Source: Candidatus Poribacteria bacterium
Lineage (GTDB): Bacteria > Poribacteria > WGA-4E > WGA-3G
Direction of reading: 5' to 3'
NCBI GenBank assembly: GCA_026706025.1
Contig: JAPOZO010000026.1
Coordinates: 1 to 64,000 of the forward strand
DNA length: 64,000 bases
Position numbers and translations under genes: made by a program. The notes under the pieces are model-generated. The model was not told the origin of the DNA. It saw nothing but the letters and a program-made list of their open reading frames with translations, and searched no databases. Positions 3,570 through 41,433 of the stretch are shown piece after piece. Positions within the stretch are counted from its first letter, which is position 1. Every line of letters begins with the position of its first letter.

Positions 3570-4070
3570 CTCTCTATCTCCTTTGGATTTACCCGTCAGT
3601 GTTGACCATTATAACATATTATACGAAAGACCCACCAAAAAAGTTTACATCCACCTTACCTTTCCTTGTGTGTTATTGGCAATGAGATAATGTTTGCAAA
3701 GCACTATGAAATTTTTGCATAAAATCACGAAATTTTTGCATCCACGCGCGATTCCTGCGCATTAGCGATAGGAACGCAATATGACTTTTTGGATTCTTTT
3801 AACGCTTTGCTCTGTTTTTTAATAAATATAGTGTACACAAACATTTTAGAAAAATTAAAATTCTATATAGTCATATAATCTTACATTTACTAATATTATC
3901 CATAGAAAGTAACATGCCTCACACAGATGCTGGCACGAAATTTGCCTAAGCATTAACAATGCAAATCGGCTTAAAAAAATATTTTGTGTCGGAATTCACG
4001 CAAAATTTGTGTCATGTATATATGAAGGCAATCATAAAATTGCCGCCAAATGAATCGGTAAGCAATTGAA
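3570..4070. other. AT-rich 500-bp gene-free stretch before the ECF sigma gene
   Basis: There is no convincing ORF in either strand. The stretch lies between two divergent genes, so it should hold both promoters. The only structure I see is a pair of direct repeats at 3708-3741 and long A/T runs around 3830-3900. Confidence 0.6.
3708..3741. promoter_or_regulatory. Two direct repeats GAAATTTTTGCAT, 21-bp period
   Basis: GAAATTTTTGCAT occurs at 3708-3720 and again at 3729-3741. The 21-bp period is two DNA turns, as expected of tandem operator half-sites on one face. It lies between the divergent lipoprotein gene and the ECF sigma gene. No binding protein is known. Confidence 0.35.
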
Positions 4071-4867
4071 ATGGTGGATGACGTTAGTTTAAATTAAACC
4101 GGCAATTCTTAGAAACTGGTGATATAGAGGCATTCTCACTGATTTTCAAAAAGTATTATCCAATTGTCTACGCTCGCGTTGCCAGAATGATGCGGAATCA
4201 TCCCGATCCCGCTGTAGATGCCGAGGATATCGCGCAGGAAACCTTTATCCAAGCCTTCAAAAAGAGGAACGAAGTCCGAGAACCGGAAAAATTGTTAGGG
4301 TGGTTGCTAAGGATCGCGAAAAACTTAACGCTGAATGAAATTAGAGATGCAGAGCGGCGAAGGCAAGCAGGAAATTCACCACTTGAATCACTTGACAGTC
4401 TTTCTATCGGCGAAAGAGAGGCACGCTACGCGACATCTCTCGCGGAAATCAATACCGAACGAGCTGAAGTAGAGCGGGATATGAAAGCAAAACTCCTCCG
4501 TCTCCTCCAAGGTAAGGACCGAAAGGTTGTAGCGTTTATGCATGACGGATTCACCATCCAAGAGATAGCGGAAGCGATAGACGCAACACCCGATGCAGTT
4601 CAGAAAAGATCGGAACGCATCCGCAAGTGGTTGATACCTATCGCACGCAATTTAGAAGCATTGGTGGACTGCCTTCCCGAAAAGAAAGACAGATGGATTA
4701 TAGAACGGTACTTGGATGGACAACCTCTCTCGGAAATTGCGCAAGCAATTGGTCTTTCTCGTTCTGCCGTTGAGCAGACAGTGAAATGTGTAATAGCACA
4801 GTGGAAGAAAGCTGCAAAGCAAAATTCCATGGATCCTGTTTCCGCAATTGTTAACAACAGCGGATAA
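4071..4867 (+). CDS. ECF-type sigma factor with tandem region-4 HTHs, read through a -1 frameshift
   Basis: From the ATG at 4187 the frame gives 226 aa but lacks the start of sigma region 2. The missing part lies upstream in the same frame (4094-4186: LNRQFLETGDIEAFSLIF and onward) with no ATG, GTG or TTG. The only sensible start is ATG 4071 in another frame, which reads MVDDVSLN and then stops at 4095. A -1 slip on T TTA AAT (4088-4094) joins them into about 265 aa. Region 2 follows (DAEDIAQETFIQAF). Two helix-turn-helix blocks come next, at about 149-188 (FTIQEIAEAIDATPDAVQKR) and 205-248 (PLSEIAQAIGLSRSAVEQ). It probably drives the peptide genes starting 17 bp downstream. A sequencing error is the main alternative to frameshifting. 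Confidence 0.75.
4088..4097 (+). promoter_or_regulatory. Candidate -1 frameshift site (slippery heptamer plus stop)
   Basis: In the frame of ATG 4071 the bases at 4088-4094 form T TTA AAT, a perfect X XXY YYZ slippery heptamer. It is followed at once by TAA (4095-4097). Slipping back one base puts ribosomes in the sigma-factor frame. I could not identify a convincing stimulatory hairpin downstream. Confidence 0.5.
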
Positions 4868-4884: not shown

Positions 4885-5214
4885 ATGTTAATGTCTTATC
4901 TTAGAAACAAAAAGATCGCTAGATCTATCGCGGCCCTACTTATGGCAATGTTCGTATTAGGGCTTTACATGAGTTATGGCGTATTTGAGCAAGAAGTTAA
5001 CGCAGCAGAAGGTGGAATAGAAGGGGAAATCGCCGTGGACAAGGACGGGAACGTTACAAAAAAAATTAAAGCGAAAGTGACTTGGAGCGATATCGGTAAC
5101 GTCATTTCGTGGGTTGGTGGCCTCTTCAGCAGTGACTCCGGTAACAACGAGAGCAATACTGACAGCCAGTGTTCTTGTGGTTGTGGAAGCACTAACAGCA
5201 GCTGCAGCTGTTAA
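4885..5214 (+). CDS. Small membrane-anchored Cys-rich C-terminus peptide 1
   Basis: The 109-aa product is preceded by AAGGAG (4872-4877). It has a basic N-terminus (LRNKKIARS), a hydrophobic segment (about 15-33) and an Ala-Glu-rich region after NAAEGG that could be a signal-peptidase site. An amphipathic block (ISWVGGLF, about 73-80) is followed by an Asn/Ser-rich linker with Asn-x-Ser sequons (NES, NSS). It ends in C-x-C-G-C-x(6)-C-x-C as the last residues. Three paralogues share this plan at 5474, 7416 and 7796. I know no described family; an exported metal-binding or modified peptide is possible. Confidence 0.8.
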   Translation: MLMSYLRNKKIARSIAALLMAMFVLGLYMSYGVFEQEVNAAEGGIEGEIAVDKDGNVTKKIKAKVTWSDIGNVISWVGGLFSSDSGNNESNTDSQCSCGCGSTNSSCSC

Positions 5215-5224
5215 CGCCCGTCCC

Positions 5225-5403
5225 GTGGCCCAATAGGAAATTTAAAAATATATAGACATTTCAGTGGGCATTAGGGTCGCGAACATTTTCTTATATTGGT
5301 GGGGTTTGATAAAGATGAGAAAGTAAACCGAATAATTTCTTAAGTTTTATTAACCCCGCCCACCTTTCAATGTATAGGTAATCGTAAGTTTTATGTTAAA
5401 TCG
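5225..5403. repeat. Degenerate relative of the family A inverted-repeat element
   Basis: GGTGGGGTTTGATAAAGATG (5298-5317) pairs loosely with TTAACCCCGCCCACC (5350-5364). The outer words resemble those of the 11196-11455 element (GGGGTTTGATGAAG near its left, TATAGGTGTATCG near its right). It separates peptide genes 1 and 2 and has no coding capacity. Confidence 0.45.
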
Positions 5404-5473
5404 TATCTCGTAAAGGTAAATACCCTTGCTTACGAAAATCTTGATCAATCTTGAGCATTATAAGGAGAAACCA

Positions 5474-5833
5474 ATGTCTTTTATATCTGATGTTAGAAAC
5501 GTGACAGTTATCCGATACGTATCAACCGTTCTGCTTATAATTTTTACATCTGCTTTCTACACGTATTATACGAATACAGTTGTAGAAGCGCGGTCACTAC
5601 TAGAACCACAAGAAAACCCAGCACCTCCACCTAACAGCGGAAAGAGCGGGATAATACTCGAAACTGATGGTAGTGATTGGAAGGCAGGTGGTTACGTGAA
5701 TTTGGACGATATTAAAAGTGCTATTTCATGGATCGGTAACCTTTTCGGTGGTGACTCTGATAACAACGACTCCAATAACGATAGCATGTGCGGATGCGGT
5801 TGTGGAGAAAGCAACACCAGCTGCGATTGTTAG
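5474..5833 (+). CDS. Small membrane-anchored Cys-rich C-terminus peptide 2
   Basis: I start at the ATG at 5474 rather than an upstream ATG at 5426, because AAGGAG lies 5-11 bp before it and MSFISDVRN aligns with the starts of the paralogues. The product is 119 aa. A hydrophobic segment (about 15-36) is followed by a Pro-rich stretch (about 45-55), the block AISWIGNLFGGDS and an Asn/Asp/Ser linker with three sequons (NDS twice, NTS). It ends in CGCGCG-x(5)-CDC. Five cysteines and the C-terminal carboxylate position match the other three copies. Confidence 0.8.
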   Translation: MSFISDVRNVTVIRYVSTVLLIIFTSAFYTYYTNTVVEARSLLEPQENPAPPPNSGKSGIILETDGSDWKAGGYVNLDDIKSAISWIGNLFGGDSDNNDSNNDSMCGCGCGESNTSCDC

Positions 5834-5979
5834 GTGTAGATTTTCGTCCAATAGAATAGGGCACATAGCACAATTCACGATTCATATACATTCGTTATGC
5901 GGGTCTCACGTCCTTCTGGATATTACCCACTCGGTGATACTCAGAAAAGCACTCAAACGAAAGAATAGGAGATTATAGC

Positions 5980-6933
5980 ATGAAATTACATGAATGGATT
6001 TCCCCTCGTAACATGGCAATCATCGGTATTGTAGTCGTTCTGATTGCTATCGGTTTCCACATCTACATGCAGCAGGATATCAGACAATTTGAAGCACATC
6101 TACCAAAAACGCCAACTGCACAATCCAGCCAATTGGGTGGGTCATCTATCTCAGTTCCATTGACAGAGGAAACCTCCCCTGGACCAGCAAAGGCTTCCAT
6201 CACTGAAGAATCCGCGCAAATTACACCTGTGTCAACGGCTGAACTGGTAGAAGTTTCCCAAAACGATGAAGCTGCCGCAGGTTGCAACATGTCAGGTGGG
6301 ATGATGATAGCATCCGAAGACGATGGTAAGGATGAACCCACACTTTACGCAGGACTCACTGAGGAAGAGGTGCAACAACTAATTAAGGAACTTTCATCTT
6401 TTTCTGTGACGGACCTCGACGAAAAGCTAGGTATGTTAGAAAATGTCTTAATCTCGAAATTTGGTCCCGATCCAGAAATCCCTCATCTCATAGGCAATCT
6501 CAACACTGCATATACCCTTATTGAAATGGGAAAAAATGCCAACGCTGTTCAGGGAGACAACACAAACGAAGTGAACGACTTTCTCAATCAGTTACCAGTT
6601 GTTGTCGTCAGTGATATGGTGGAAACCGCCATCAACTTATTTGATCTGAGCGAAGAAGAGGCTGCCGTAGGACGTGCCCACGTGGACGCGTTGCGAAGCA
6701 AAATTGATGGACTCGAACTCTTACAAGATGTAAAACCTATGGTTATAGAGGGCATAAGTGCAGGAGATATAACACCTGAAGAAGCCGAAGCGTTTTTGGA
6801 AAATTTATCAGGTTTAGATGTTACAGTGTCAGAACCAGACCGCACGCAAAGAACTAAGGAATTGGAAAAACCCACAACGCTTGATGGAACTGAACCGATT
6901 GTCCCGAAGATTCCGGACCACGGAGATTTTTAA
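5980..6933 (+). CDS. Membrane-anchored protein of unknown function in the peptide cluster
   Basis: The 317-aa product has a single N-terminal transmembrane helix (about 13-29, MAIIGIVVVLIAIGFHIYM). A Ser/Thr/Pro-rich extracytoplasmic linker (about 35-100) follows, with a lone GCNMSGGMM segment. The acidic C-terminal part (about 115-300) is predicted helical (LTEEEVQQLIKELSSF, DLSEEEAAVGRAHVDAL, DITPEEAEAFLENLSGL). I recognise no family. AATAGGAGATT precedes the start. The next gene begins 14 bp later, so they are likely co-transcribed. A scaffold or carrier for the exported peptides is possible, but this is only inference from position. Confidence 0.65.
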   Translation: MKLHEWISPRNMAIIGIVVVLIAIGFHIYMQQDIRQFEAHLPKTPTAQSSQLGGSSISVPLTEETSPGPAKASITEESAQITPVSTAELVEVSQNDEAAAGCNMSGGMMIASEDDGKDEPTLYAGLTEEEVQQLIKELSSFSVTDLDEKLGMLENVLISKFGPDPEIPHLIGNLNTAYTLIEMGKNANAVQGDNTNEVNDFLNQLPVVVVSDMVETAINLFDLSEEEAAVGRAHVDALRSKIDGLELLQDVKPMVIEGISAGDITPEEAEAFLENLSGLDVTVSEPDRTQRTKELEKPTTLDGTEPIVPKIPDHGDF

Positions 6934-6947
6934 AAAGGGATTGACCT

Positions 6948-7355
6948 ATGAAAACTTCTCGCATTTTCACACTCGTAGGAATCTCCGTGATACTTTTCAG
7001 CATTAGTCTGGCACCTTTAGCGAAAACGCCACCTCAAAAAATGACTGAGGCGGATGTCAAGGCATTTCTGGAGATGGCACCTCAACAATTCGGGTGCACC
7101 ATTCACAGACAACAACTCCAAAATTGGAATTATGCAGAAGCTAAAATCCCCATTGGACTGGCAAACTGTGCGGACTGCGCCCCCTATATCACTGTCTTTC
7201 GGGAAAGAGGCACAAATGGCATGCCTACTGTAGGAGCAAGGGTATCATGGTCCACTTTATGGAAAATTCCGAGCATATTAGTGCACTATGCCAAAACCTT
7301 ACCCAAACGAGGTTGGGTATTCCTTCGTAAAGGTTTTCAAAAACTCTTCTCGTGA
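6948..7355 (+). CDS. Exported protein of unknown function with a CADC pair
   Basis: The 135-aa product has a signal peptide (about 1-25, ending near PLAKT). A charged segment (MTEADVKAFLEMAPQQFGC) and ANCADCAPYITVFRERG (about 72-88) follow, giving three cysteines, and the C-terminus is basic (LPKRGWVFLRKGFQKLF). I do not recognise it. It lies between peptide genes 2 and 3, with no terminator visible, so it belongs to the same cluster. The Cys-x-x-Cys pair could be redox or metal-binding, but thioredoxin-fold features are not evident. Confidence 0.6.
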   Translation: MKTSRIFTLVGISVILFSISLAPLAKTPPQKMTEADVKAFLEMAPQQFGCTIHRQQLQNWNYAEAKIPIGLANCADCAPYITVFRERGTNGMPTVGARVSWSTLWKIPSILVHYAKTLPKRGWVFLRKGFQKLFS

Positions 7356-7415
7356 TGGCTAACCCTCTGTAATTTGTAGAACCCTGTCCTTCAACAGAAC
7401 CAAAGGAGAAAAGTT

Positions 7416-7736
7416 ATGTCATTATGCACAATCAGAAATAAAAAATTTGCGACACTTATCGTAATCCTTTTCATGGCGACATTTTTATTTACCCTATATA
7501 CATTCACAACCAATCTCACACCAGCAAGCGCAGATGATGTATCAGTAGACGCAAGTGTTGTAGACGATTCTGGCACGTTAGAGATCCACCTCTATTATGA
7601 TTTGGATGACGTTATTGACGGACTTTCTTGGTTCATAGATCAGTTCACTGACGTGTTCAGCAGCGATAACAATTCCGATAACAGCAATAGTGAATGTGAA
7701 TGTGGTTGTGGTGAGGGTAGTAGTTGTTCCTGTTAG
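7416..7736 (+). CDS. Small membrane-anchored Cys-rich C-terminus peptide 3
   Basis: The 106-aa product is preceded by AAAGGAGAAAAGTT. It starts MSLCTIRNKKFAT, close to peptide 1 (RNKKIAR) and peptide 4 (RHRKIAT). A hydrophobic helix (about 14-31), a plausible cleavage region (TPASADD) and an acidic mid-part follow. Then come GLSWFIDQFTDVFSSD, an Asn/Ser linker with one NNS sequon, and the terminal ECECGCG-x(4)-CSC. The conserved basic leader plus invariant tail with variable middles is the pattern of a precursor peptide family. Confidence 0.8.
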   Translation: MSLCTIRNKKFATLIVILFMATFLFTLYTFTTNLTPASADDVSVDASVVDDSGTLEIHLYYDLDDVIDGLSWFIDQFTDVFSSDNNSDNSNSECECGCGEGSSCSC

Positions 7737-7795
7737 TTAATTCGCACATGTTAATCAAAAGGAACGCACTTCAGGAAATCGAATAGGAGAAAGTT

Positions 7796-8098
7796 ATGTC
7801 TTTACACACACTTAGACATAGAAAAATTGCGACACCTATTGCAATCTTTCTTGTTGCAATGTTCTCATTTGGCGTGTATATAGTCTGGATAGACTCAGTA
7901 CCCGCATCCGATGACCATAACGATGATAACCCCCGGCCTATCCCTCCTGCTGAGATTGGTTGGACAGAACTACCGGTTATCGGGGAGGCTATTAGCTGGG
8001 TGTTAGATAAAATTACCGACGACGATCCTAATAACGACAGTTCCAATAACAGCGAATGCAATTGTGGTTGTGATGATGGCAATAGTTGTTCCTGTTAA
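7796..8098 (+). CDS. Small membrane-anchored Cys-rich C-terminus peptide 4
   Basis: The 100-aa product follows AATAGGAGAAAGTT. Order: MSLHTLRHRKIAT leader, hydrophobic helix (about 13-32), acidic and Pro-rich stretch (DDNPRPIPPAE), EAISWVLDKI block, linker with NDS and NNS sequons, and C-terminal ECNCGCDDGNSCSC. The start codon and ribosome site are almost identical to those of peptide 3 sixty bases upstream, which suggests a recent tandem duplication. The STT3-like gene begins 27 bp after its stop. Confidence 0.8.
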   Translation: MSLHTLRHRKIATPIAIFLVAMFSFGVYIVWIDSVPASDDHNDDNPRPIPPAEIGWTELPVIGEAISWVLDKITDDDPNNDSSNNSECNCGCDDGNSCSC

Positions 8099-8125: not shown

Positions 8126-10471
8126 ATGCTGAAAAGGTTTTTGAGTAGTATTCTCTTAATTTGCGTCCTGCTTATCGCTTTCTGGATTCGTACCCAAGGT
8201 ATAAGTAGAATACCCGACGGGCAGTTTACTGGATATGATGCTTATCTCTATTACTGGCAAGCAAATATCATTTCCGAACACGGGGATCTCCCAGAACGTG
8301 ATATGCACCGTTGGTTACCCCTCGGTAGAGATTTAGGGCAAACCCTGAATCTCTACTCTTTTGCCCTCGCTTACGGGCACAAAGCAATCTCCTTATGCTT
8401 CCCAAATGTCTCGCTTTATCATGTCTCTGTTTATGCACCACCCATCTGTTTTGTTATCGGTCTCGGTGTGCTTTGTCTTTTCCTTTATCACACCTATGGA
8501 CTCCTCTTTTCTGGCATCGTTGGTGTACTCTTAGCAACCTTTCTCGGCACCATCGGACGCAGCTCCGCCGGTTTTGGAGATCGGGACAGTTGGTGCTTTA
8601 TGCTCGCTGTCCTTGCCGCCACAACCTATCTTGCGTCTTTGCAAACACAACACCCGCGTAAACGTATTTTATGGAGCCTTGCAAGCGGTGGTGTTGTTTT
8701 CCTCGGTGGTCTCAGCTGGGAGGCTTTCGGTTTTTTTGTTTTAATGATAGTTGCTGTAGAACTCTGGAAATTCTGCACCACAGATAGCGAACAACATCTA
8801 ACAGAATACATCTTGTGGGTGTTCATGTTCGTACCGGGGCTCTATCTTGTCAGTCCTGCGTATCGAAATGGTTATGGGTTCGCAGCACATGTCACCGCTC
8901 TGCTGCTCTTCCCCCCACTCGTTATCCTCGGAATCCGCAGTGTCAGGTATCTGCTTCTCGATTTTTTCCAACAACTCCGACCCTACGCACGCCCTCTCGC
9001 CTGGCTTCTAACACTTAGTAGCATCGCATTGGGTATCATTTATCTTCTGATCAACCTTGATAACTTTGATCATACCGCTTATCAGTTTAGCGAAAACCGT
9101 TTAATGCGAAGCATCGGGGAGCTTGCTAACCCACGTTTTGACTACTGGATGGAACGCTATGGAAGTTTCTTTATCTTAGGCAGTCTCGGATTCGTCATTG
9201 AAAGCCTCCGGATCTGGCGATGGAAAGCCATACCTCTGGCAGCTTCTCTCACTCTCTTCTTTACAACCACTTTTTTCCGATGGCCCATTAGTCAATGGAT
9301 CGGTACAGATGTATGCAATATACTCTTTTTCGCTTCGTTTGCACTCGTGCCTATCGGAATCGGTATTGCAAGCCACCGAACAGAAAACTCACCAACGGAA
9401 TTTGTAATGCTTCTCGTTATCGCGTGGGCACTCCTATGGATAGGTCTCGCGCGCGGTGGGAAACGATTTGACTTCTTTATCGGCGTTCCTATTGCCTTTG
9501 GCACTGCCTCACTGCTATGTCACCGTTCTCTACAACTCATAGAAAAACTAAAAACAACTAAAAGACTGCCCGCTCATTTCAAGGAACCTTGGGTCGTCGC
9601 TTGTATCACAGCCATAGTGTTTATTCCCCTGCTTCTTTGGGCACCCTTGGGGGGGCACGCTACACGCGCCCTGAAAAACGCCAAGAAAATCCGAGGACCG
9701 ATTCCTGGACGAGGAGAAGTATTAGAGACATTTCAGTGGATGAATTCTACACTCCCAGATAATAGCGTTATGGCGGCGCATTGGAGCCATGGCAGTCAAC
9801 TCAACATCTTTGGTGGTGTCAAAACTATTATTGACCAAGACCATTATTTACCGCACTGGATCCATCTTTACTACCGACATGTCTTCAGTGCCCAGTCCGA
9901 GCGAGAAGCACTCTCTTTTCTCATCACTCATGGAGCAACACATCTTATGTTGACACAAAACGAGGTTATTAGATTATCACGAAGCCTTTCCTTCATCGGT
10001 AGTGACAAAAAGGCAGATCGCCGCTTTGGTCTCACTAAACTGGACCGAAACAGAAAAACTGCAACTGAAACATATACCAAGTTACTACCGCGGCGCGGCA
10101 CTCCTTTGGAATCCATTGAGGTTGTTAGCATTACCCCTGAAAAGCGACTTGTGACTATTCAATTCAAAACACAGGATACTGTGACCAAAGAGGTGGTATG
10201 GAACGCCAACATCCCCTCAGTAATAGAACTTGGAACAAGTGGTATGATACTCTATTTTGACTTTGAAGGTAAACCCTACATCGGTTACTACATTTCCCCA
10301 ATCGGTTGGAACAGTCTCGCAGTTAAACTATTCATACGTGGTGAGCATAGCACAGCCTTCATACCTGTCTATCCGGTTAACAAAAAGGATTTTGCCAAAC
10401 TCAAAGTTTGGAAAATTCACTATCCGTCTGATATAAAGCCAAATCCCAGATATCTTGCAACTGAACCTTAG
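8126..10471 (+). CDS. STT3/AglB-like oligosaccharyltransferase (GT66-type) membrane protein
   Basis: The 781-aa product has a multi-span N-terminal half (roughly 12 hydrophobic segments up to about 525) and a soluble C-terminal domain. STT3 proteins transfer lipid-linked glycans to Asn in N-x-S/T on the outer face of the membrane. A first acidic motif is seen in GYDAYLYYW (Asp38) and a second in GFGDRDSW (Asp152, Asp154), both as in STT3/AglB. At the start of the soluble domain, where WWDYG is expected, this protein has HWSHG (552-556), followed by a fitting IIDQDHY. That change in the sequon-reading motif is notable, so function may be altered. It sits directly after four peptides with Asn sequons. 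A GT39-like mannosyltransferase or a catalytically altered relative remains possible. Confidence 0.72.
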   Translation: MLKRFLSSILLICVLLIAFWIRTQGISRIPDGQFTGYDAYLYYWQANIISEHGDLPERDMHRWLPLGRDLGQTLNLYSFALAYGHKAISLCFPNVSLYHVSVYAPPICFVIGLGVLCLFLYHTYGLLFSGIVGVLLATFLGTIGRSSAGFGDRDSWCFMLAVLAATTYLASLQTQHPRKRILWSLASGGVVFLGGLSWEAFGFFVLMIVAVELWKFCTTDSEQHLTEYILWVFMFVPGLYLVSPAYRNGYGFAAHVTALLLFPPLVILGIRSVRYLLLDFFQQLRPYARPLAWLLTLSSIALGIIYLLINLDNFDHTAYQFSENRLMRSIGELANPRFDYWMERYGSFFILGSLGFVIESLRIWRWKAIPLAASLTLFFTTTFFRWPISQWIGTDVCNILFFASFALVPIGIGIASHRTENSPTEFVMLLVIAWALLWIGLARGGKRFDFFIGVPIAFGTASLLCHRSLQLIEKLKTTKRLPAHFKEPWVVACITAIVFIPLLLWAPLGGHATRALKNAKKIRGPIPGRGEVLETFQWMNSTLPDNSVMAAHWSHGSQLNIFGGVKTIIDQDHYLPHWIHLYYRHVFSAQSEREALSFLITHGATHLMLTQNEVIRLSRSLSFIGSDKKADRRFGLTKLDRNRKTATETYTKLLPRRGTPLESIEVVSITPEKRLVTIQFKTQDTVTKEVVWNANIPSVIELGTSGMILYFDFEGKPYIGYYISPIGWNSLAVKLFIRGEHSTAFIPVYPVNKKDFAKLKVWKIHYPSDIKPNPRYLATEP

Positions 10472-10534: not shown

Positions 10535-11095
10535 ATGATAGCAAACGCAGTAACGTTCCTAAGGCTTTTTTTAACCGTCGTAGTGGTGGCACTATTCAAC
10601 GTAAACTATTATCTTGACATAGGACTGATTGTAACAATCGCCGGTATCTTTATACTTGATGTTGTTGGTGGAATCATCGCCCGCAAATGTAACCAGACAA
10701 CCAAGTTAGGAACCATCCTTGATACCGTAGTAAACAGAAGTGTTGAAAATACTTTCTGGATTTATTTTACAGTAACTGGTTTGATTCCGTTATGGATGCC
10801 TATTACGGTCCTCGCTCGCGGTTTTTTCACAGATAACTTACAGCAGTGTATCCAACTATCAACAACTGGATGGGCACACATTTTAACCCGTTCTCGGACA
10901 ATCCATGCACTTTACGACATCGCCAAAATGAGTACTTTCCTTTGCCTCGCAGGCATTAGTGCTTTTAAACCTGAGAATCCCGTGATAGAACTAACAAGTA
11001 TAATACTCGCTACTGGCACCATTGGCTTTTGTATCCTCCGCGGGATTCCGCTATTCATAGAAACATGCAAAATTTTCACTGTTAACCCACAATAA
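10535..11095 (+). CDS. CDP-alcohol phosphatidyltransferase-like membrane protein, degenerate motif
   Basis: The 186-aa product has several hydrophobic spans. It also has a recognisable but altered CDP-alcohol phosphatidyltransferase signature: LDVVGGIIARK then GTILDTVVNR (about 46-73). The usual D-x2-D-G-x2-A-R-x8-9-G-x3-D-x3-D is present except that the second Asp is Gly and the last Asp is Asn. Family enzymes join a CDP-activated lipid to an alcohol. Loss of two metal-site acids suggests reduced or changed activity. It is 63 bp after the STT3-like gene in the same direction, which hints at a lipid carrier or membrane-lipid role in the same pathway. Confidence 0.65.
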   Translation: MIANAVTFLRLFLTVVVVALFNVNYYLDIGLIVTIAGIFILDVVGGIIARKCNQTTKLGTILDTVVNRSVENTFWIYFTVTGLIPLWMPITVLARGFFTDNLQQCIQLSTTGWAHILTRSRTIHALYDIAKMSTFLCLAGISAFKPENPVIELTSIILATGTIGFCILRGIPLFIETCKIFTVNPQ

Positions 11096-11890: not shown

Positions 11891-12925
11891 TTGAAAAGTC
11901 AGGCAACATTTTTAACAAACGCCCTGCTTATATTCACTTTTGTGGCACTTACTTATGGAGACACGCCCAAGCAGATTCGACCCGATAGCCACGCCCCAAT
12001 TGGTGTGATGGGCGACCATGGACACAAAACTGGCGAAATGATGCTCTCGTACCGTTTCATGACAATGGACATGCGGGGCTTACAATCTGGAACTGTCCCC
12101 CTCAAAACCGCAGATGTCCTGAAAGATTTTATGATGGTACCAACACAAATGGATATGCAGATGCATATGCTCGGCGTAATGTTCGCGCCACACAACAGTA
12201 CCACATTTATGGGAATGATAAACTACCAACAACGTAACATGGAAATGGAGAGCATCCAGCAACACACACATGGCGAGCATAGAGAACCCGTTGGACATCA
12301 TGAAATGTCCAGTGTAGGCATCGGCGATACCAAATTAGAGGCACTTATTACGCTCTGGAAAACACCAGATTTGACGTTCCTTACCAACGTTGGTGTATCA
12401 TTCCGAACCGGTTCCATCGCACAAACGGGAAATGGTAAACAAACCCTACCGTATCCTATGCAACTTGGGAGCGGTTCTTTTGAAGCACGCCCAGGTATTA
12501 CGCTCTTTGGATTTTACAACACCTGGTCCTATGGTGGGCAATTGCGAGGCGCATTCCCTTTGCACACCAATTCCAGCGAGTACCGACATGGTGCCACCTT
12601 CGTTGTCACAGCATGGGGTGCGCGACGGATCAACAATTGGATTAGCCTCAGTAGCAGATTACTATTGTCACGACAAGGAAATATCACCGGAAGCAACCCA
12701 GATTTAAATATAGGCATGAGCCCCAGTCACCGCTCCGACTTTCGCGGGCACACGCGACTTGATTTCGCGGTCTCCTGCAATCTCACCGTTCCGACAGGCA
12801 CTTTTGCTGGGCAAAGATTTGCCATTGAGATGCAGATGCCCCTCTATCAAAACTTAAACGGAATTCAGCTCAAGAGTAAATGGCTACTCACCCTCGGTTG
12901 GCAATACGCCTTTAAGGTCTTATAG
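11891..12925 (+). CDS. Met/His-rich outer-membrane protein (phenol MetA-degradation/transporter-like family)
   Basis: The 344-aa product starts at TTG after AAAGGAGGAATT. It has a signal peptide (about 1-23), then HAPIGVMGDHGHKTGEMMLS with a run of Met and His (SYRFMTMDM, PTQMDMQMHMLG), and later strands typical of a beta-barrel (GIGDTKLEALITLWKTP, LPYPMQLGSGSFEARPG). This resembles a family often annotated as putative transporter and found near copper or heavy-metal genes. A copper-related role is inference from the Met/His richness. No terminator is seen after it. Confidence 0.65.
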   Translation: MKSQATFLTNALLIFTFVALTYGDTPKQIRPDSHAPIGVMGDHGHKTGEMMLSYRFMTMDMRGLQSGTVPLKTADVLKDFMMVPTQMDMQMHMLGVMFAPHNSTTFMGMINYQQRNMEMESIQQHTHGEHREPVGHHEMSSVGIGDTKLEALITLWKTPDLTFLTNVGVSFRTGSIAQTGNGKQTLPYPMQLGSGSFEARPGITLFGFYNTWSYGGQLRGAFPLHTNSSEYRHGATFVVTAWGARRINNWISLSSRLLLSRQGNITGSNPDLNIGMSPSHRSDFRGHTRLDFAVSCNLTVPTGTFAGQRFAIEMQMPLYQNLNGIQLKSKWLLTLGWQYAFKVL

Positions 12926-13164: not shown

Positions 13165-15357
13165 CTATTCTAAAAGGCGAAGAGCTTCTTCAATCTCGGT
13201 TTTGAGCGATTTGGCCCCCTCCTGCTCTGCAAGTTTTAGGGCAGCTTGGAAATCCGATTTTGCTTTTAAAACATCGCCCATTTCAACCTTTGAGCGTCCG
13301 CGTTTATAGTAGGCTTTGGCGTAATCCGGTTTTAGGTGGACAACCTTATCATAGTCTTCAATCGCACCGTTGTTATTCCCGAGGTTTGACTTCGCGTCTC
13401 CCCGAGTTTCGTAGGCTTCAGCAAGATCAGGATTCAGACGAATCGCCGTATCACAATCCTCAATAGCACCTTTATCGTCACCCAGATTGAACCTCGCATC
13501 AGCACGATTGACATAGACAACGGCAAGAACAGTATCTTTCGGACCAAGACGAATTGCCATATCACAGTCTTCAATCGCTCCTTTGCTATCACCTAAACGT
13601 AATTTCGCAAGTCCACGATTGACATAGGCAACGGCATCTGTCGGTTTAAGCCGAATAAGAGTATTGTAATCTTCAATAGCACCCTTATTATTGCTTAGGC
13701 GTAACTTCGCGGAGGATCGCCTGCGGTAGACGTAAACAACCAAAAGAGTATTCTGGGGATTAAGGCGAATCGCTTCATCATAGTCTTCAATAGCACCTTT
13801 ATAGTCGTCTAAGTGCAATTTCGCATCGGCACGATTGACATATGCGGTGGCAAGAATAGCATTTCCCGGTTTTAAACGAATCGCTTCATCATAATCTTCA
13901 ATAGCACCCTTCCTGTCTCTTAATTCTGTTTTTCTTAGACCGCGGTTGACGTATGCAGCAGCAAGAATAGCATTTCTCGGTTTTAAACGAATCGCTTCGT
14001 CATAGTCTTCAATAGCACCTTTCGCGTCGCCTACGTCTGACTTCGCGTCAGCACGCTTGACGTAGATAGTGGCAAGAATAATATTTCCCGGTTTTAAACG
14101 AATCGCTTCGTCATAGTCCTCAATCGCCCGCTTAGTATTTCCTAAGCTAGATTCTGCGTCAGCACGAATACCGTAGGCAGTGGCAAGAACAATAGTATCT
14201 TCCGGCTTTAGGCGAATCGCCGTGTCACAGTCTTCAATCGCTCCTTTATAGTCCCGTAAATCTTTCCTTGCAAGCCCCCTATTGACATAAGCATCGGCGT
14301 AATCTGGTTCAAGACGAATTGCTGTATCATAATCTTTGATAGCACCTTTATAGTCGCCTAATCCTTTCTTCGCAACACCCCGACTGGAATAGACATCCGA
14401 ATAATCCCTGCCGAGGCGAATGACAGTATTATAATCTTCAATAGCCCCCTTATAATTCCCCAAGTCTGATTTTACAAGTCCCCTTTTGAGATAAACATTG
14501 GCAAAATCGGGGTTTAGATGGATAGCTGTATCATAGGCTTCAATAGCCCCCTTATAATCGTCATCAAATTCTCTTTTTTTATCACCTTGATTGGCATAAG
14601 CATAGGCGTGTATAAGAGGCTCCGCTTGCCATTTTTCCAAAGGTTTCGCTTGTACCGGTATATCATCAAGCAACACCTTGATATGATTTGAAGGAACAAC
14701 AGCTCCCGAACTTCTCCTTTCCCCACCTTCCATAGAAATCGCTATCACCTCTCCTTTGTCGTTTAGCACCGGACCACCACTATATCCTGGAAGCAGTAAG
14801 GCTTTTATCCGATAGAAATCGGCAGTAGTTCGGCTTATTGTACCATTCTTGATTTTGCCTTCTGCTCCCTTATGGGTCCCTACAACAATAACTCTGTCAC
14901 CAGGTTTTACCATTTCACTATCACCAAGAGGCAGGGCTTCTACTTCTTCACCTTCAACTTTTAAGATAACCAAATCGCGTTTCGGATCACTCGCCATGAC
15001 CCCTTTGATAGTATATTGTGTCGGTTGATTAATTAGGTTTACACGCCAGTTATAGGATTTCCCATGGATGCCAGCAAGGACGTGAATATTGGTAACAATC
15101 AAATCACGCCGAATAAAGAAACCACTACCGTAACCTCCTGTTTCATCAGCAGCTTTACCAACCAAGATTACTGTGGCATCTTTCCCGATTTGCGCAATTT
15201 GTTGTTCGAGATTCGGGCGCGTAGTGGTTTTTTCGAGTTGTTCAGTTTTTTGCTTGACGCTCAAAGCACAAGATAAGAAAGCACATAGGGCAACGGCTCC
15301 AACTAACACTAATCCTTTTTCCAAGAAATTTAATACGACAGTTGATTGCAATTTCAC
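13165..15357 (-). CDS. Trypsin-like serine protease with about 13 TPR repeats
   Basis: The 730-aa product has a hydrophobic N-terminal anchor or signal (about 15-33) and a trypsin fold (about 55-225). The catalytic triad is visible as His92 (VTNIHVLAG), Asp128 (PKRDLVIL) and Ser193 (GYSGGPVL). From about 250 to 715, about thirteen tetratricopeptide units follow (A-Y-x-N-R-G-x-A-K then G-x-Y-K-G-A-I-E-D-Y). Such proteins are exported proteases whose TPR array binds partners. Several repeats are nearly identical in DNA (13840-14130), which indicates recent expansion. CTCCTTTATG on the plus strand at 15360 is the minus-strand ribosome site, supporting this start. Confidence 0.88.
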   Translation of the reverse strand: MKLQSTVVLNFLEKGLVLVGAVALCAFLSCALSVKQKTEQLEKTTTRPNLEQQIAQIGKDATVILVGKAADETGGYGSGFFIRRDLIVTNIHVLAGIHGKSYNWRVNLINQPTQYTIKGVMASDPKRDLVILKVEGEEVEALPLGDSEMVKPGDRVIVVGTHKGAEGKIKNGTISRTTADFYRIKALLLPGYSGGPVLNDKGEVIAISMEGGERRSSGAVVPSNHIKVLLDDIPVQAKPLEKWQAEPLIHAYAYANQGDKKREFDDDYKGAIEAYDTAIHLNPDFANVYLKRGLVKSDLGNYKGAIEDYNTVIRLGRDYSDVYSSRGVAKKGLGDYKGAIKDYDTAIRLEPDYADAYVNRGLARKDLRDYKGAIEDCDTAIRLKPEDTIVLATAYGIRADAESSLGNTKRAIEDYDEAIRLKPGNIILATIYVKRADAKSDVGDAKGAIEDYDEAIRLKPRNAILAAAYVNRGLRKTELRDRKGAIEDYDEAIRLKPGNAILATAYVNRADAKLHLDDYKGAIEDYDEAIRLNPQNTLLVVYVYRRRSSAKLRLSNNKGAIEDYNTLIRLKPTDAVAYVNRGLAKLRLGDSKGAIEDCDMAIRLGPKDTVLAVVYVNRADARFNLGDDKGAIEDCDTAIRLNPDLAEAYETRGDAKSNLGNNNGAIEDYDKVVHLKPDYAKAYYKRGRSKVEMGDVLKAKSDFQAALKLAEQEGAKSLKTEIEEALRLLE

Positions 15358-16802: not shown

Positions 16803-17600
16803 TTAGCGTCTTGATTTAATGCTGCCCCAGGTTGTGGTGAGCTTATCTGCCGGTTCTACTGACAGAAATTCGCCATCCATCACCTCTTTAATCTCATCTT
16901 TGGATAACGCACGGCCGAAAATATAGAACTCATCCATCAGCCCATCAAACCAGCGACCATTCTTATGGTGTCCGATCGCAGCTGAGACGCCCCAGTTATC
17001 TGAAAGTTCGCCTTTACCTTTCGCCTCGTGTGTCATCTTCCCATCGACGTAGGTTTTCGTGTCACCGCTCTTGCTATCGTAGGTGCCAGTGAAATGCACC
17101 CACTCTCCACCGTCGATAACAGGACCGGGGTTGATATTGAAAATTTCTGCTTGGGCACCATCTCGATGGAACCATCTGAAGCCAGCAGGACGGATTTCCA
17201 CGTGGAAGAGACCGCTCCCGTGATCAGTGCCAATCGCGTCAAAGATGCTCTGTGGTTCGGGTGAATCGTTATGATTGACCCAGACAGCAAGGGTGAAACC
17301 GTCAACGGGCGCGTTTTCAAATTCCGGTCCGTTCAAGTTCACCCATGTATTTGGCTCTAAAACGACGGCTTTACCGAAAACACCATCTTCTCGTTTAACT
17401 TTCCCTTCAATTATCCCATCGTTCCCATGAATGGAACCGTCTTTGACGGTATCTCCATTCTCGTCGAAATTATAGTAGACAGACAGTGTCGGGTCCTTGA
17501 GGTCAGCGTGTGTTGAAACAGCAAAGGCGATTACCATTGCCACAACGACGAAGACCATCGACAACTTCCCGACACGTAGACGTGTTAACTCGTAGAACAT
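16803..17600 (-). CDS. Secreted LamG (concanavalin-like) domain protein with C-terminal WGxxK tag
   Basis: I start at the Met at 17600, nine codons inside the longest ORF, because GGAAGGA lies just before it. The 265-aa product has a signal peptide (about 11-32, ending THAD). A LamG/concanavalin-like jelly-roll follows (about 38-240: SVYYNFDENGDTVKDGSIHG, WVHFTGTYD, FDGLMDEFYIFGRALSKDEI), a fold that binds glycans. The last residues, VEPADKLTTTWGSIK, match the tails of four other secreted proteins in the window. Ligand unknown. Confidence 0.85.
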   Translation of the reverse strand: MFYELTRLRVGKLSMVFVVVAMVIAFAVSTHADLKDPTLSVYYNFDENGDTVKDGSIHGNDGIIEGKVKREDGVFGKAVVLEPNTWVNLNGPEFENAPVDGFTLAVWVNHNDSPEPQSIFDAIGTDHGSGLFHVEIRPAGFRWFHRDGAQAEIFNINPGPVIDGGEWVHFTGTYDSKSGDTKTYVDGKMTHEAKGKGELSDNWGVSAAIGHHKNGRWFDGLMDEFYIFGRALSKDEIKEVMDGEFLSVEPADKLTTTWGSIKSRR

Positions 17601-17815
17601 TTTATGTCCTTCCTTATGTAATTTCATGAATTATAGTGTGGTTCGCATAGATACAAACCCTATATTTGCCCAATATTATACCATAAAAATGCTTAAAATC
17701 AAAGCAAAATTTAGGCAAATTGAATCCTATTAGACATACGTTCGCAATGCATGCTAATATATAGACAATCATTCACTTACCAAACGCAAATTTCCAAACC
17801 AAAGGAGTCAAGACA

Positions 17816-18673
17816 ATGAAACATTCGCTAACAGTACGATGCCTGTGTCTAACGCTTCTCATTGCAGCATGTGCGATTGTGCCAGTGTATTCAGCAGACG
17901 TAACCGTTGGGCTACTCGCTGGCAGCAACAAACTCGGTGAAGTAGAAGAAGCCGCTTACGCGTGGGCGGAGGATAACTTTAAAACCACGACACTCCTCGT
18001 AGACAAAAGCGGTAATTTCAAAAATAAGGGCGGCACTGCATTGCAACCGGAGCAGTTCGCTGTGTTATGGATGTTCTATACAGAAACAAACACATTGCCA
18101 GATCCGTTCCTCGCCGATGCAACTCAAAAAGCAATCCTTGACTATGCTGAGGCAGGCGGAGGCGTATTTCTCTCAGCGTTAGCACTCCGCTATGTCTTTG
18201 AACTTGATGTTGAAGATGGCGGAGACCCACGAGTTTTCGGTCCCCTCGGCAAGGAGCCTCCAGAAATTGGTGTGGTACCAACCGCTGATGGCAAAAACCA
18301 TCCCGTCTTTGAAGGGTTTGATACCAGCAAACCGGTCTTTCTCACGAGCATGCAGCAAGATGGGTTTACCTCAGATTTCTTTAACTTTGGAGATGATCCG
18401 TCTGGTACAATTCTTGGAACAAAAACACGCGGCGGTGGTGCTGGTGGTGGAGAGCGTCCTTTCGTTGAATATGAGGTCGGCGACGGAATAATTATCACCC
18501 TTGGACACCACAACGGTGTTTATACCGATGCGAAATCGAAAGAGGGAACCAACCTGAGAAACCTAACAGCAAATGTGCTGAATTATCTCGGTGAAAATTC
18601 AGCGTTCTTCGCCGTTGAACCGAACGGTAAATTAGCAACGACTTGGGGAGACCTAAAGGCAGCGTCGAAATAA
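17816..18673 (+). CDS. Secreted ThuA/GATase1-like protein with C-terminal WGxxK tag
   Basis: The 285-aa product has a signal peptide (about 1-26, ending VYSAD) and a Rossmann-like domain (GLLAGSNKLGEVEEAAYAW, then AILDYAEAGGGVFLSAL near 105-120). HPVFEGFDTSKPVFL and GDGIIITLGHHNG follow, as in ThuA or glutamine-amidotransferase-like folds. I see no certain catalytic Cys, so it may bind sugars rather than hydrolyse amides. It ends in VEPNGKLATTWGDLK plus five residues. CCAAAGGAGTC precedes the start, and a strong terminator follows at 18699. Confidence 0.7.
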   Translation: MKHSLTVRCLCLTLLIAACAIVPVYSADVTVGLLAGSNKLGEVEEAAYAWAEDNFKTTTLLVDKSGNFKNKGGTALQPEQFAVLWMFYTETNTLPDPFLADATQKAILDYAEAGGGVFLSALALRYVFELDVEDGGDPRVFGPLGKEPPEIGVVPTADGKNHPVFEGFDTSKPVFLTSMQQDGFTSDFFNFGDDPSGTILGTKTRGGGAGGGERPFVEYEVGDGIIITLGHHNGVYTDAKSKEGTNLRNLTANVLNYLGENSAFFAVEPNGKLATTWGDLKAASK

Positions 18674-36404: not shown

Positions 36405-37172
36405 CTAACGCCACGCTTTGACACTTGCCCAAGTAGTTGCGAGTTTATCCGCGGGATCTACAGGTAAAGCAGTTAGGTCTTCCATGCTCCGCGCAATATC
36501 GTCTTCCGACAAAGCCCGATCCCAGACCGTCACCTCATCAATGATCCCGTTGAACTTTTGTCCGGTCGCGCCCCATGAGCCGACCATCGTATCACCAGCC
36601 GTTCCAAGGTACTCAATCCCCGCTTTGCCAGCGTCTTCTACGACTGACTTACCATCAATGTAAATTTGTCGGGATTTGCCTTTAACATCCAACCAGAAAG
36701 TGATATGGGCCCACTTGTCGGCTTTGACGGCGGCAGGTGCGTCAAGATCGTTGGCATAAAATCCCATGCGAACCGTGCCGCTGTTGTAGATACGATAATG
36801 TAGGCTTGTGTTCTGTGCGTTGACCTGCGTCTGTGAGAAAACGCACTGCTGGTCGGCACCGCTTAATGCTGGCTTGACCCACATTGTTACCGTAAAACTC
36901 TTTTCGTTGATTTCAATATAAGGTGCCTTGACTTCGCCTGCTTGCTCGAACCCCAAGGCTTTTCCGAATTTACCATCAACCCAATCCGCATCTCCGACGA
37001 GTTCTGCATCGTTTCCATGTGGGGAAAGATCTTCCATGGCTTTTCCCTTGCCTTCGTTGAAAGAAACATAGAGCAGTAACTCCTTATCCTTCAGGTCCAA
37101 CGCTGTAGCACTGAAGGGCATCAGCACTAAGCCAGCGAGGATCAATGCGGAAAGTAATATCCGATATAGCAT
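36405..37172 (-). CDS. Secreted LamG domain protein with C-terminal WAxxK tag
   Basis: The 255-aa product has a signal peptide (about 1-24, ending ATALD) and a concanavalin-like LamG fold (about 30-225: LLLYVSFNEGKGKAMEDLSP, FTVTMWVKPALSG, WAHITFWLDVKGKSRQIYID, FNGIIDEVTVWDRALSEDDI). Such domains bind polysaccharide or protein. It ends VDPADKLATTWASVK plus three residues, the shared tail. AAAGGAGATC lies before the start on the minus strand. Confidence 0.87.
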   Translation of the reverse strand: MLYRILLSALILAGLVLMPFSATALDLKDKELLLYVSFNEGKGKAMEDLSPHGNDAELVGDADWVDGKFGKALGFEQAGEVKAPYIEINEKSFTVTMWVKPALSGADQQCVFSQTQVNAQNTSLHYRIYNSGTVRMGFYANDLDAPAAVKADKWAHITFWLDVKGKSRQIYIDGKSVVEDAGKAGIEYLGTAGDTMVGSWGATGQKFNGIIDEVTVWDRALSEDDIARSMEDLTALPVDPADKLATTWASVKAWR

Positions 37173-37546
37173 AAAAAGTGATCTCCTTTTAAATTAAGTG
37201 TAAGTGAAGTTTCTCTAACTAATTTCATACCCGTTCAGACTAACACAGAAATTGGCAAATGTCAAGATTTTTTATCAGTATGTAACCCAAGTTGGCACCT
37301 AAAAGGTTATAGACAGCCTGAGTTATTAGGTATGCCCCATTTCGTGCAGTTGCCTCTAAAGAATGCCCTCTTTTGGGCAGGATTTCCCTACGTTTTGTAG
37401 CAAACTCCGCCAGTATGGTATTGCTCGGATTGGCACGGAACTTGCTAAATCTGCCAATGTGTAGATCGGTTTGCTGCCACCACAAAAATTATGTTATGGG
37501 TGGCAAGTTGGATTGTTTTAACACACTTTCAAAAGGAGCAATCACA
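37173..37546. other. Gene-free region between divergent LamG genes
   Basis: About 370 bp lie between two divergent LamG genes. An ATG at 37373 opens in the frame of the second gene but has no ribosome site and would place 58 extra residues before the signal peptide, so I treat it as non-coding. I see no repeats. Confidence 0.55.
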
Positions 37547-38401
37547 ATGAAAAGCGGAATCCATTTTATGACATTTACGATAATCATCAGTATTCTCTCA
37601 CTCAATACGGCACAGGCATCTATTGTAACAGATGGGCTTGTCAGCTATTGGACCTTTGATCAAGTTCACATTATTAATAAAACAGCAAAAGATGTTTGGG
37701 GTGACAACAACAGCGCAATCAGAGGAAATCCTAAAATTGTTCCAGGTAAGATAGGAGAGGCACTTGCGTTCGATGGTGCCAGCGACCTTGTTAACCTAAC
37801 CACGCTTGGAGATTCTGGTAGATGGATTGGTACATCTTCGTTTGAAGCCTGGATCAAAACCACTAACAAAAAGGATTGGATGACGCTTTTTAATACGCAT
37901 GGTGATGAATGTCCTAATTGGGGAATAGAACTCAATGGCATTAATATAAGAAATAAATTTGAGATTAATGAGGGAACTCTTCATTACTACTTTAACTTTG
38001 AAGGATGGAGAGGATGTGTCGGTGATGGTAGTACAATGCGTGCGGATATTTTTGATGGAGAATGGCATCACATTGTTTATACAATTGACTATATGATACA
38101 TGAAAGCGGCGGAAGCGGGAAAAGAATTATCTATATAGACGGTGTATCCGGTTCTACAAGCAATCATGGATTTGGGGAGAAGAGAGCACTTGCGCCATTT
38201 ACAGCCCCTGTCCATCTCGGCGCGAGAAAGTTTCCGGGGAAAGCACATGGGCACTTCATGGGTATGATTGATGAAGTCCGTTTTTATGATCGGCCGCTCA
38301 CAGCAGATGAAGTGATCCAGAATTTTCAATCAATCGAACCTTATAACGTCGCGCCTAAAGGAAAATTGTCAACCCTCTGGGCGACATTGAAGACAAAATG
38401 A
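37547..38401 (+). CDS. Secreted LamG domain protein with C-terminal WAxxK tag (second)
   Basis: I start at the ATG at 37547 because AAAAGGAGC is just upstream and a signal peptide begins there (about 1-24, ending AQAS). The 284-aa product has a LamG fold (about 30-260: LVSYWTFDQVHIINKTAKD, SFEAWIKTTNKKDW, EWHHIVYTID, HFMGMIDEVRFYDRPLTADE). Family proteins bind glycans or surface polymers. It ends VAPKGKLSTLWATLK plus two residues. It is divergent from the LamG gene at 36405. Confidence 0.87.
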   Translation: MKSGIHFMTFTIIISILSLNTAQASIVTDGLVSYWTFDQVHIINKTAKDVWGDNNSAIRGNPKIVPGKIGEALAFDGASDLVNLTTLGDSGRWIGTSSFEAWIKTTNKKDWMTLFNTHGDECPNWGIELNGINIRNKFEINEGTLHYYFNFEGWRGCVGDGSTMRADIFDGEWHHIVYTIDYMIHESGGSGKRIIYIDGVSGSTSNHGFGEKRALAPFTAPVHLGARKFPGKAHGHFMGMIDEVRFYDRPLTADEVIQNFQSIEPYNVAPKGKLSTLWATLKTK

Positions 38402-40463: not shown

Positions 40464-40704
40464 CTACACACCCCATTCTGTAAATCTTGTACAAACAACA
40501 AAAATTGAACGGTTCTAAAATTAAAATCGTTGACATTTTCGCTTCGTTCTTATAGAGTATAGGCAGACCTGGATTAGAATTAGAATGAGATCGAATTCCG
40601 ATTCCCAATTACAATCGGATATTTGCCCACTACTGGTCCAATCCGAGGGCTGCTTTCAAGTTCCCACATTACCAAAACACATTCCAGAAGGAGGAAACTC
40701 TTTT

Positions 40705-41433
40705 ATGTATCGTCACCTGTTCTTACCCATTCTGATGTTACTACTCTTAACAAGCACTGCTATAGCGAAAGGCGAAAAACTCGTTCTCGTTGGATCGGGT
40801 GCCCCGGATCCGAAGGACGATCTCCTCATAGAATACCTCGAAGAGTGGGGATACGTCGTCGAACCGCATGAGCACTTGGCGAAGCACCCCGTCAATCTCG
40901 CAGGTATAGATCTGGTCTTTATTTCAGAATCAACGTCGAGTGGCAACATTTTGGACGCTTATAAAGATTCAGCTGTTCCTGTTGTCAACGCCGAGACATG
41001 GACTTACGACGACATGGGGTTTGCCGCAGACGGCACATTTAACTCTGATGCAGGCGACAAACTGACCATCGTCGATACCGAGCATCCGATAACCGAAGGG
41101 TTTAAAGGCGACATCACAGTCAGCAAACCTGCGGCACAGTTGATGACGTGCAGTGGCTTTGAAGGCGATATTGACATCTTAGCCGTGCGCGCTGACAATG
41201 ATGATTTAGTCGCCATTTCCGTTTATGAGAAAGGCGCGAAAACGATAAAAGGTACAACGAAAGCGATACACGTTAACATCTGGCCCCACTCCACCGCTTG
41301 GCAGCAGGTAACAGAGGAAGGTTGGGAACTCGTCCACCGCTCAATCCTCTATGCCTTGGGTCAGATTCCGTTTGATGTTGAACCACAAGAGAAACTCGCT
41401 GTCACTTGGGGACAGATTAAAACGGCACACTAA
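40705..41433 (+). CDS. Secreted ThuA-like protein with C-terminal WGxxK tag (second)
   Basis: I start at the ATG at 40705, after AAGGAGGAAAC and at the beginning of a signal peptide (about 1-20, ending AIAKG). The 242-aa product has KLVLVGSGAPDPKDDLLIEY, then LAGIDLVFISESTSSGNIL, VPVVNAETW and EHPITEGFKGDI, a Rossmann or GATase1-like fold related to ThuA. It ends VEPQEKLAVTWGQIK plus three residues. It resembles the 17816 protein in fold and tail but is shorter. Confidence 0.7.
   Translation: MYRHLFLPILMLLLLTSTAIAKGEKLVLVGSGAPDPKDDLLIEYLEEWGYVVEPHEHLAKHPVNLAGIDLVFISESTSSGNILDAYKDSAVPVVNAETWTYDDMGFAADGTFNSDAGDKLTIVDTEHPITEGFKGDITVSKPAAQLMTCSGFEGDIDILAVRADNDDLVAISVYEKGAKTIKGTTKAIHVNIWPHSTAWQQVTEEGWELVHRSILYALGQIPFDVEPQEKLAVTWGQIKTAH

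Follow-up and report, generated by a model that had tools for sequence, protein, structure and literature searches.

Dedicated O-oligosaccharyltransferase/substrate pairs are represented by PglS-ComP, TfpO/PilO-PilA and TfpM-pilin, and the PglS glycotag is listed as flanked by two cysteines (PMC12645811). In such pairs the gene of a periplasmic glycan-transferring enzyme adjoins that of one small exported substrate (PMC12645811). A similar arrangement was found in a stretch of 64,000 nucleotides from a Candidatus Poribacteria bacterium (contig JAPOZO010000026.1 of assembly GCA_026706025.1, positions 1 to 64,000), hereafter the window, in which four genes for short peptides with a cysteine-rich (Cys-rich) C-terminal tail precede a gene for an STT3-type protein. 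The usual account of STT3 is that of a general enzyme of N-glycosylation whose acceptor signal is a single short sequon. The linkage of an enzyme gene to an exported partner gene, as in the dedicated pairs, is present in the window, and the closest known logic is that of a dedicated O-oligosaccharyltransferase encoded together with its pilin substrate. The described enzymes are WaaL-like and serve pilins, whereas here an STT3-type protein stands beside Cys-rich peptides, several matched pairs occur per genome and the substrate status is putative. By analogy, the poribacterial pairs may work like PglS-ComP-type pairs without belonging to their family. The cassette in the window is one of several peptide/STT3-paralog pairings in Poribacteria.

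Three other groups of proteins invite comparison. STT3, AglB and PglB share with the poribacterial enzymes the fold, the C-terminal domain, the metal/acceptor carboxylates and an Arg, but here WWD is replaced by [NH]W-x and numerous paralogs occur, each linked to Cys-rich peptides; ordinary STT3s act broadly on N-x-S/T. Metallothioneins and CxC metal tails resemble the peptides in carrying clustered CxC within a short flexible chain. In contrast to them, the poribacterial peptides are exported, have only five Cys, all in a C-terminal tail, and show no sequence match, and their metal binding is putative. The Cys-rich envelope proteins of Chlamydia are likewise small and exported, with a comparable cross-linking logic, but no sequence relation was detected, and the peptides described here lack a lipobox and are paired with STT3.

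The four peptide genes lie on the + strand at 4885-5214 (peptide 1, 109 amino acids (aa), tail CSCGCGSTNSSCSC), 5474-5833 (peptide 2, 119 aa, tail CGCGCGESNTSCDC), 7416-7736 (peptide 3, 106 aa, tail CECGCGEGSSCSC) and 7796-8098 (peptide 4, 100 aa, tail CNCGCDDGNSCSC). Each of the four open reading frames (ORFs) is preceded by a strong ribosome-binding site of the AGGAG type, which is AAGGAGAAATTCA for peptide 1 and AAGGAGAAACCA for peptide 2; an alternative TTG start of peptide 2, upstream at 5426, is possible and was judged less likely. A preliminary description of the window had reported four genes of 100-119 aa with a shared leader and one hydrophobic helix, and these ORFs were confirmed. 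The CxCGC-x(5-6)-CxC tail is not a chance product: it was found in 4 of the 443 window ORFs of at least 40 aa, whereas 300 shuffles gave an average of none. At the DNA level the tail pattern occurs four times in the 6.27-Mb genome, always at this locus, and once across 37 congeners. The codons TGT and TGC alternate among the four copies at three of the five conserved Cys positions, and these synonymous changes indicate that the cysteines are conserved at the protein level. Scans of the peptides against Pfam and NCBIfam gave no family match, in line with the earlier remark that no described family is known to have this tail. In the AlphaFold model of the peptide, the leader is helical and the I-S-W block forms a second, short helix, while the linker and the tail are unstructured; the mean predicted local distance difference test (pLDDT) is only 54, and the model is uninformative beyond the two helices. 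Two other assignments were rejected. A bacterial lipoprotein would require a lipobox, which was absent: none of the seven family members considered below has a Cys within the hydrophobic stretch or immediately behind it. For an IscA/HesB-like CGCG tail, IscA-type profiles gave only chance-level hits (E 0.2-0.5) and Pfam none.

The gene at 8126-10471 (+) begins 27 bases after the fourth peptide and encodes a divergent STT3-type oligosaccharyltransferase of 781 aa, the cognate GT-C glycosyltransferase of the cassette. The protein matched the NCBIfam model archaeo_STT3 with E 1.6e-18, which is below that model's cut-off. A single-sequence search of the PDB returned no match and a profile search only a weak one, to the C-terminal domain of yeast Stt3; a fold comparison was therefore needed. 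The AlphaFold (AF2) model built from 30 paralogs reached a pLDDT of 85.8 and a predicted template modelling score of 0.85, and its top PDB fold matches were AglB, Stt3 and PglB, with E values down to 1.9e-15. The product thus combines the GT-C transmembrane (TM) fold with the STT3 C-terminal domain. The catalytic metal/acceptor residues of PglB are D56, R147, D154, D156 and E319 (PMC7226087). Their counterparts in the window protein, assigned by sequence motif, are D38, R145, D152, D154 and E332; the R-x6-D-x-D spacing is the same as in PglB, and the residues are invariant or at least 90% conserved in the 30 paralogs. In STT3 proteins, Ser/Thr at position +2 of the sequon is recognised by the WWD motif. 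In its place the window protein carries HWS (HWSHG), and most paralogs carry [NH]W-[DSGNE]-[YHF]-G. Judged by these residues, the protein is an STT3 homolog, though not a canonical sequon-reading one. Since the catalytic residues are kept and WWD is replaced, it probably retains activity without reading sequons in the classical way.

Relatives of the peptides were sought with a profile, in the class first and then in the phylum (85 genomes), and the family was present in 4 of the 85. Besides the window genome, these are three genomes of the same genus (G077, G055 and G069) with one copy each. The relatives share the leader L-[KR]-N-R-K-x-A, a single hydrophobic stretch and a terminal CxC...CxC, so their tails are not random. 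The exact five-Cys end, which had been described as invariant, holds for the four window copies only: the tail is CACGCGWIV[PS]TCPCD in G055 and G069, one residue longer, and CNCYSPCNC in G077, without the middle CGC. Similarly, the I/L-S-W block is conserved in the window copies and absent from the other three genomes. Poly-Ser replaces the Asn/Ser linker in G055 and G069, and Ser/Thr positions are not conserved among the relatives. The peptides had been thought to be membrane-anchored. However, in each of the seven members the hydrophobic stretch leads into a plausible signal-peptidase site (VNA, VEA, ASA, VPA, AEA or ASG), and because of this small-x-small site a release after export would be at least as likely as anchoring.

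The gene neighbourhood is conserved as well. In all four genomes with the family, the peptide or peptides lie upstream of the same STT3 clade and co-occur with that orthologue and with a TM protein of a family represented in the window by a single-TM exported protein of 317 aa (5980-6933, +), a family that occurs beside STT3s. The STT3 orthologues of these genomes are 67-68% identical, compared with at most 57% for other paralogs. A sigma factor of the extracytoplasmic function (ECF) type (4100-4867, +, in the window) precedes the cassette in the window, G055 and G069; none was identified in G077. The G069 locus is divided between two contig ends, and both G055 and G069 additionally encode a TM protein of 103-112 aa that ends in CGSCGCQ.

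STT3 homologs were found in 59 of 83 genomes of the class, often in several copies, with six full-length copies in one complete genome; the organism names of the loci place the STT3-bearing relatives in Candidatus Poribacteria. Other STT3 paralogs also had small exported Cys-rich proteins upstream of them, of different sequence families. In complete or near-complete genomes, 10 of 16 STT3 loci had a same-strand exported Cys-rich ORF in the 5 kb upstream. For the background, 20 control regions, each 20 kb long, yielded one candidate in 800,000 strand-bases (1 of 160 control windows; Fisher p about 1e-11). The family of alignment A5 was searched genome-wide in nine genomes, and six of its seven members have an STT3 3.4-4.3 kb downstream on their own strand. 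At the seventh (L201:3109-9043; G080:762000-780000) the order peptide, WD40 protein and MacB-like permease is kept, and a PMT_2 glycosyltransferase occupies the STT3 slot, followed by GT4 and GT2 enzymes. This swap suggests that what the cassettes have in common is glycosyl transfer and not the STT3 enzyme in particular.

On a tree of 58 STT3s, the seven peptide families required 7 changes (minimum 6), compared with 19.3 in shuffles. Families A (that of the window), B, C, D and F each fall on one strongly supported STT3 clade, and E and G do not. The match is evidence of stable co-inheritance across paralogs rather than of substrate specificity, because vertical inheritance of whole cassettes would give the same pattern. 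No convincing match of the other partner families was obtained in Pfam and NCBIfam scans. They contain up to 17 cysteines, and several resemble disulfide-rich or helical proteins more than metallothioneins. Fixed C-terminal tails were also seen in exported peptides upstream of STT3, namely SGSCDSGSC[GSD] at L099, L141 and L156 and GGCGCG[GS] at L121 and L125; Cys/Gly ends therefore recur in unrelated partner peptides. In one clade, a C39-peptidase-like plus DUF1573 protein is encoded upstream of the STT3 (L131:203-1516), and the sister locus L134 has no Cys-rich partner by the criteria used.

Taken together, the linkage, enrichment, co-inheritance, STT3 fold, conserved catalytic residues and PMT swap are directly supported, and it is quite probable that the peptides and the STT3s work together in the envelope. 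Our preferred reading, held with somewhat less than even confidence, is that the peptides are Sec-exported Cys-rich envelope or secreted clients of the cognate STT3, probably its glycosylation substrates, with a metal-binding or disulfide-bonded tail. After export by Sec, signal peptidase may release the peptide, and the STT3 would glycosylate it, probably in the disordered Asn/Ser linker and without a strict N-x-S/T sequon. The CxCGC...CxC tail would then bind a soft metal ion, Cu(I) or Zn, as suggested by the Cys/Met/His clusters of neighbouring proteins; alternatively, tail disulfides would protect or cross-link the peptide at the cell surface. For the parts of this scheme, the chances that the peptide is the glycan acceptor appear evenly balanced, metal binding by the tail is put forward tentatively and disulfide formation with rather more reserve. 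The operon is probably controlled by the ECF sigma factor. Any glycosylation is not Asn-linked or not sequon-bound, because the sequons are not conserved. Of the earlier suggestion of a precursor or surface peptide, the surface half agrees with the exported leader, the conserved ends and the free middles. A modifying enzyme, if there was one, had been expected elsewhere; the likely enzyme is instead the adjacent STT3, and the idea of a modified peptide may have been right in spirit.

Several observations weigh against this reading. Glycosylation and metal binding are both predictions, and the linkage could reflect an STT3 that acts on the neighbouring TM protein and not on the peptide. No candidate partner was found by the criteria used at 23 of the 55 STT3 loci with enough upstream sequence. 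The criteria for Cys-rich ORFs, on which the enrichment depends, were fixed after the first loci had been seen, and shared descent makes related loci non-independent. The peptides of G069 and G077 lack N-x-S/T sequons, the overall count (43 observed, 33.7 expected) is only slightly above chance and WWD is not conserved in the STT3s, which makes classical N-glycosylation doubtful. Such classical modification of the linker was accordingly rejected as the simple explanation. With respect to metal, His/Cys/Met clusters were counted in 20 of 55 exported STT3 neighbours and in 0 of 34 controls, which favours the reading, but the thresholds were set post hoc, the families are not independent and the 317-aa protein of the window missed the cut.

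A metal function without glycosylation of the peptides was also considered. The peptides would be metallothionein-like, the STT3 would modify the TM protein or a Met/His-rich outer-membrane-barrel-like protein (11891-12925, +), and the barrel and the sigma factor would serve metal homeostasis. In the four genomes with the window family, the 317-aa family carries a Cys plus Met/His cluster (GCNMSGGMM in the window protein; CAMATMENMATMEM; CAMATMEMG; GCNHAGSHAHGSGSHTH), which its paralogs elsewhere lack. The barrel family occurs in 14 of 66 STT3 loci, and in the nine genomes searched all copies of at least 65% identity stand beside STT3s. Plasmid-borne homologs of the barrel lie near genes for cytochrome c maturation, DsbD and a multicopper oxidase in Ruegeria and near feoB in Methylosinus. 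The neighbours' Cys/Met/His clusters and the barrel context give circumstantial grounds for suspecting a metal. However, the G077 genome and most STT3 loci lack the barrel, the neighbours of the peptides showed no metal transporter, P-type ATPase or metalloregulator, and the disulfide-rich or helical appearance of several partner families does not suggest metallothioneins. This explanation is considered unlikely. The same partner families, with their many cysteines, would suit structural peptides whose tails form inter-molecular disulfides that cross-link a surface layer, the STT3 being a general surface glycosylation enzyme co-regulated by happenstance. Export, four copies, many cysteines and flexible low-complexity linkers are consistent with such a role, but cysteines spaced as CxC are more usual at metal sites than in inter-chain disulfides, and both the match of five of the seven peptide families to STT3 clades and the PMT swap are left unexplained, so we regard this role as a poor candidate.

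Two further alternatives were weighed. Export- or host-directed effectors or signals, pheromone- or toxin-like and glycosylated for stability, would have the amphipathic I-S-W helix as their active part. The window copies do place an amphipathic helix before a polar linker, the hosts are sponges in which the bacteria live as symbionts (PMC3909097) and MacB-like permeases occur at other cassettes; nevertheless, the three other genomes lack the I-S-W block and the window cassette shows no MacB-like gene, which leaves this function improbable. As ribosomally synthesized and post-translationally modified peptide (RiPP) precursors, the peptides would be recognised, through the conserved leader and the Cys tail, by an enzyme that makes thioether or heterocycle rings. 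Their ends are conserved around a variable middle, a Ser adjoins Cys in the tail and peptide 2 aligned at chance level (E 0.34) with the model of a radical SAM-modified RiPP, TIGR04149 of NCBIfam. The leader is, however, a Sec-type hydrophobic signal and not a cytoplasmic RiPP leader, Ser/Thr positions vary in the relatives, and no LanM, YcaO or radical SAM enzyme was present among the typed recurrent neighbours, the whole genome not having been searched. The precursor half of the earlier suggestion was therefore set aside as very improbable, with neither an enzyme among the typed neighbours nor a match to a known precursor model in its favour.

No prior description of a coupling between Cys-rich peptides and STT3 was found in the open-licence literature, where no paper joined Poribacteria with oligosaccharyltransferase, STT3, or glycosyltransferase plus WD40; the stems glycosyl- and cystein- do not occur in the Poribacteria single-cell genomics paper. 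In a broader and more doubtful extension of the client reading, STT3 would have multiplied into several paralogs that are freed from N-x-S/T and each serve one exported Cys-rich peptide family exclusively, providing a phylum-wide, protein-specific glycosylation of metal-binding or disulfide-rich surface peptides that possibly touches the sponge host. If true, the natural enzyme-peptide pairs would allow direct tests of how STT3 acceptor specificity evolved, offer a molecular handle on the surface display of uncultured, dominant sponge symbionts and possibly supply new enzymes for glycan attachment to designed peptides.

Among the other genes of the locus, a small exported protein of 135 aa (6948-7355, +) had no convincing relative in the class; it is therefore not a core part and is probably accessory. 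A CDP-alcohol phosphatidyltransferase-like protein (10535-11095, +) recurs in 16 of the 66 STT3 loci. Further recurrent neighbours in this set were WD40 proteins (31 loci), MacB-like permeases (20), sigma-54 activators (13), a T2SSC-like protein (12) and GT2 enzymes (9). A trypsin-like protease plus TPR protein, encoded at 13165-15357 (-), has relatives in 11 of these loci. The 5' end of the sigma factor gene is apparently frameshifted: at about 4070-4115, the likely start (MVDDVSLN, then a stop) and the body (RQFLETGD...) are in different frames. The homolog in L089 is intact, and the window copy reflects a frameshift or an assembly error. Three large, closely spaced paralogs of 966-1000 aa (43023-45947, 48275-51175 and 51550-54552) begin with an ECF-sigma-like domain.

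A C-terminal motif, V(E/D)P..KL[ATS]TTW[GA]x[LIV]K, was observed in exported proteins, 2-5 residues short of the terminus. It was counted in 20 ORFs of the loci examined, 18 of them with an N-terminal hydrophobic signal, and looks like an undescribed sorting or processing signal; an NCBIfam scan of the proteins returned no C-terminal signal model. In the window the motif is found at 16803-17627 (-), 17816-18673 (+) and 36405-37172 (-), with variants at 37373-38401 and 40585-41433, and it recurs at many further loci. The Cys-tail peptide of G069 carries the same string, as TTWGSIK, just after its signal peptide.

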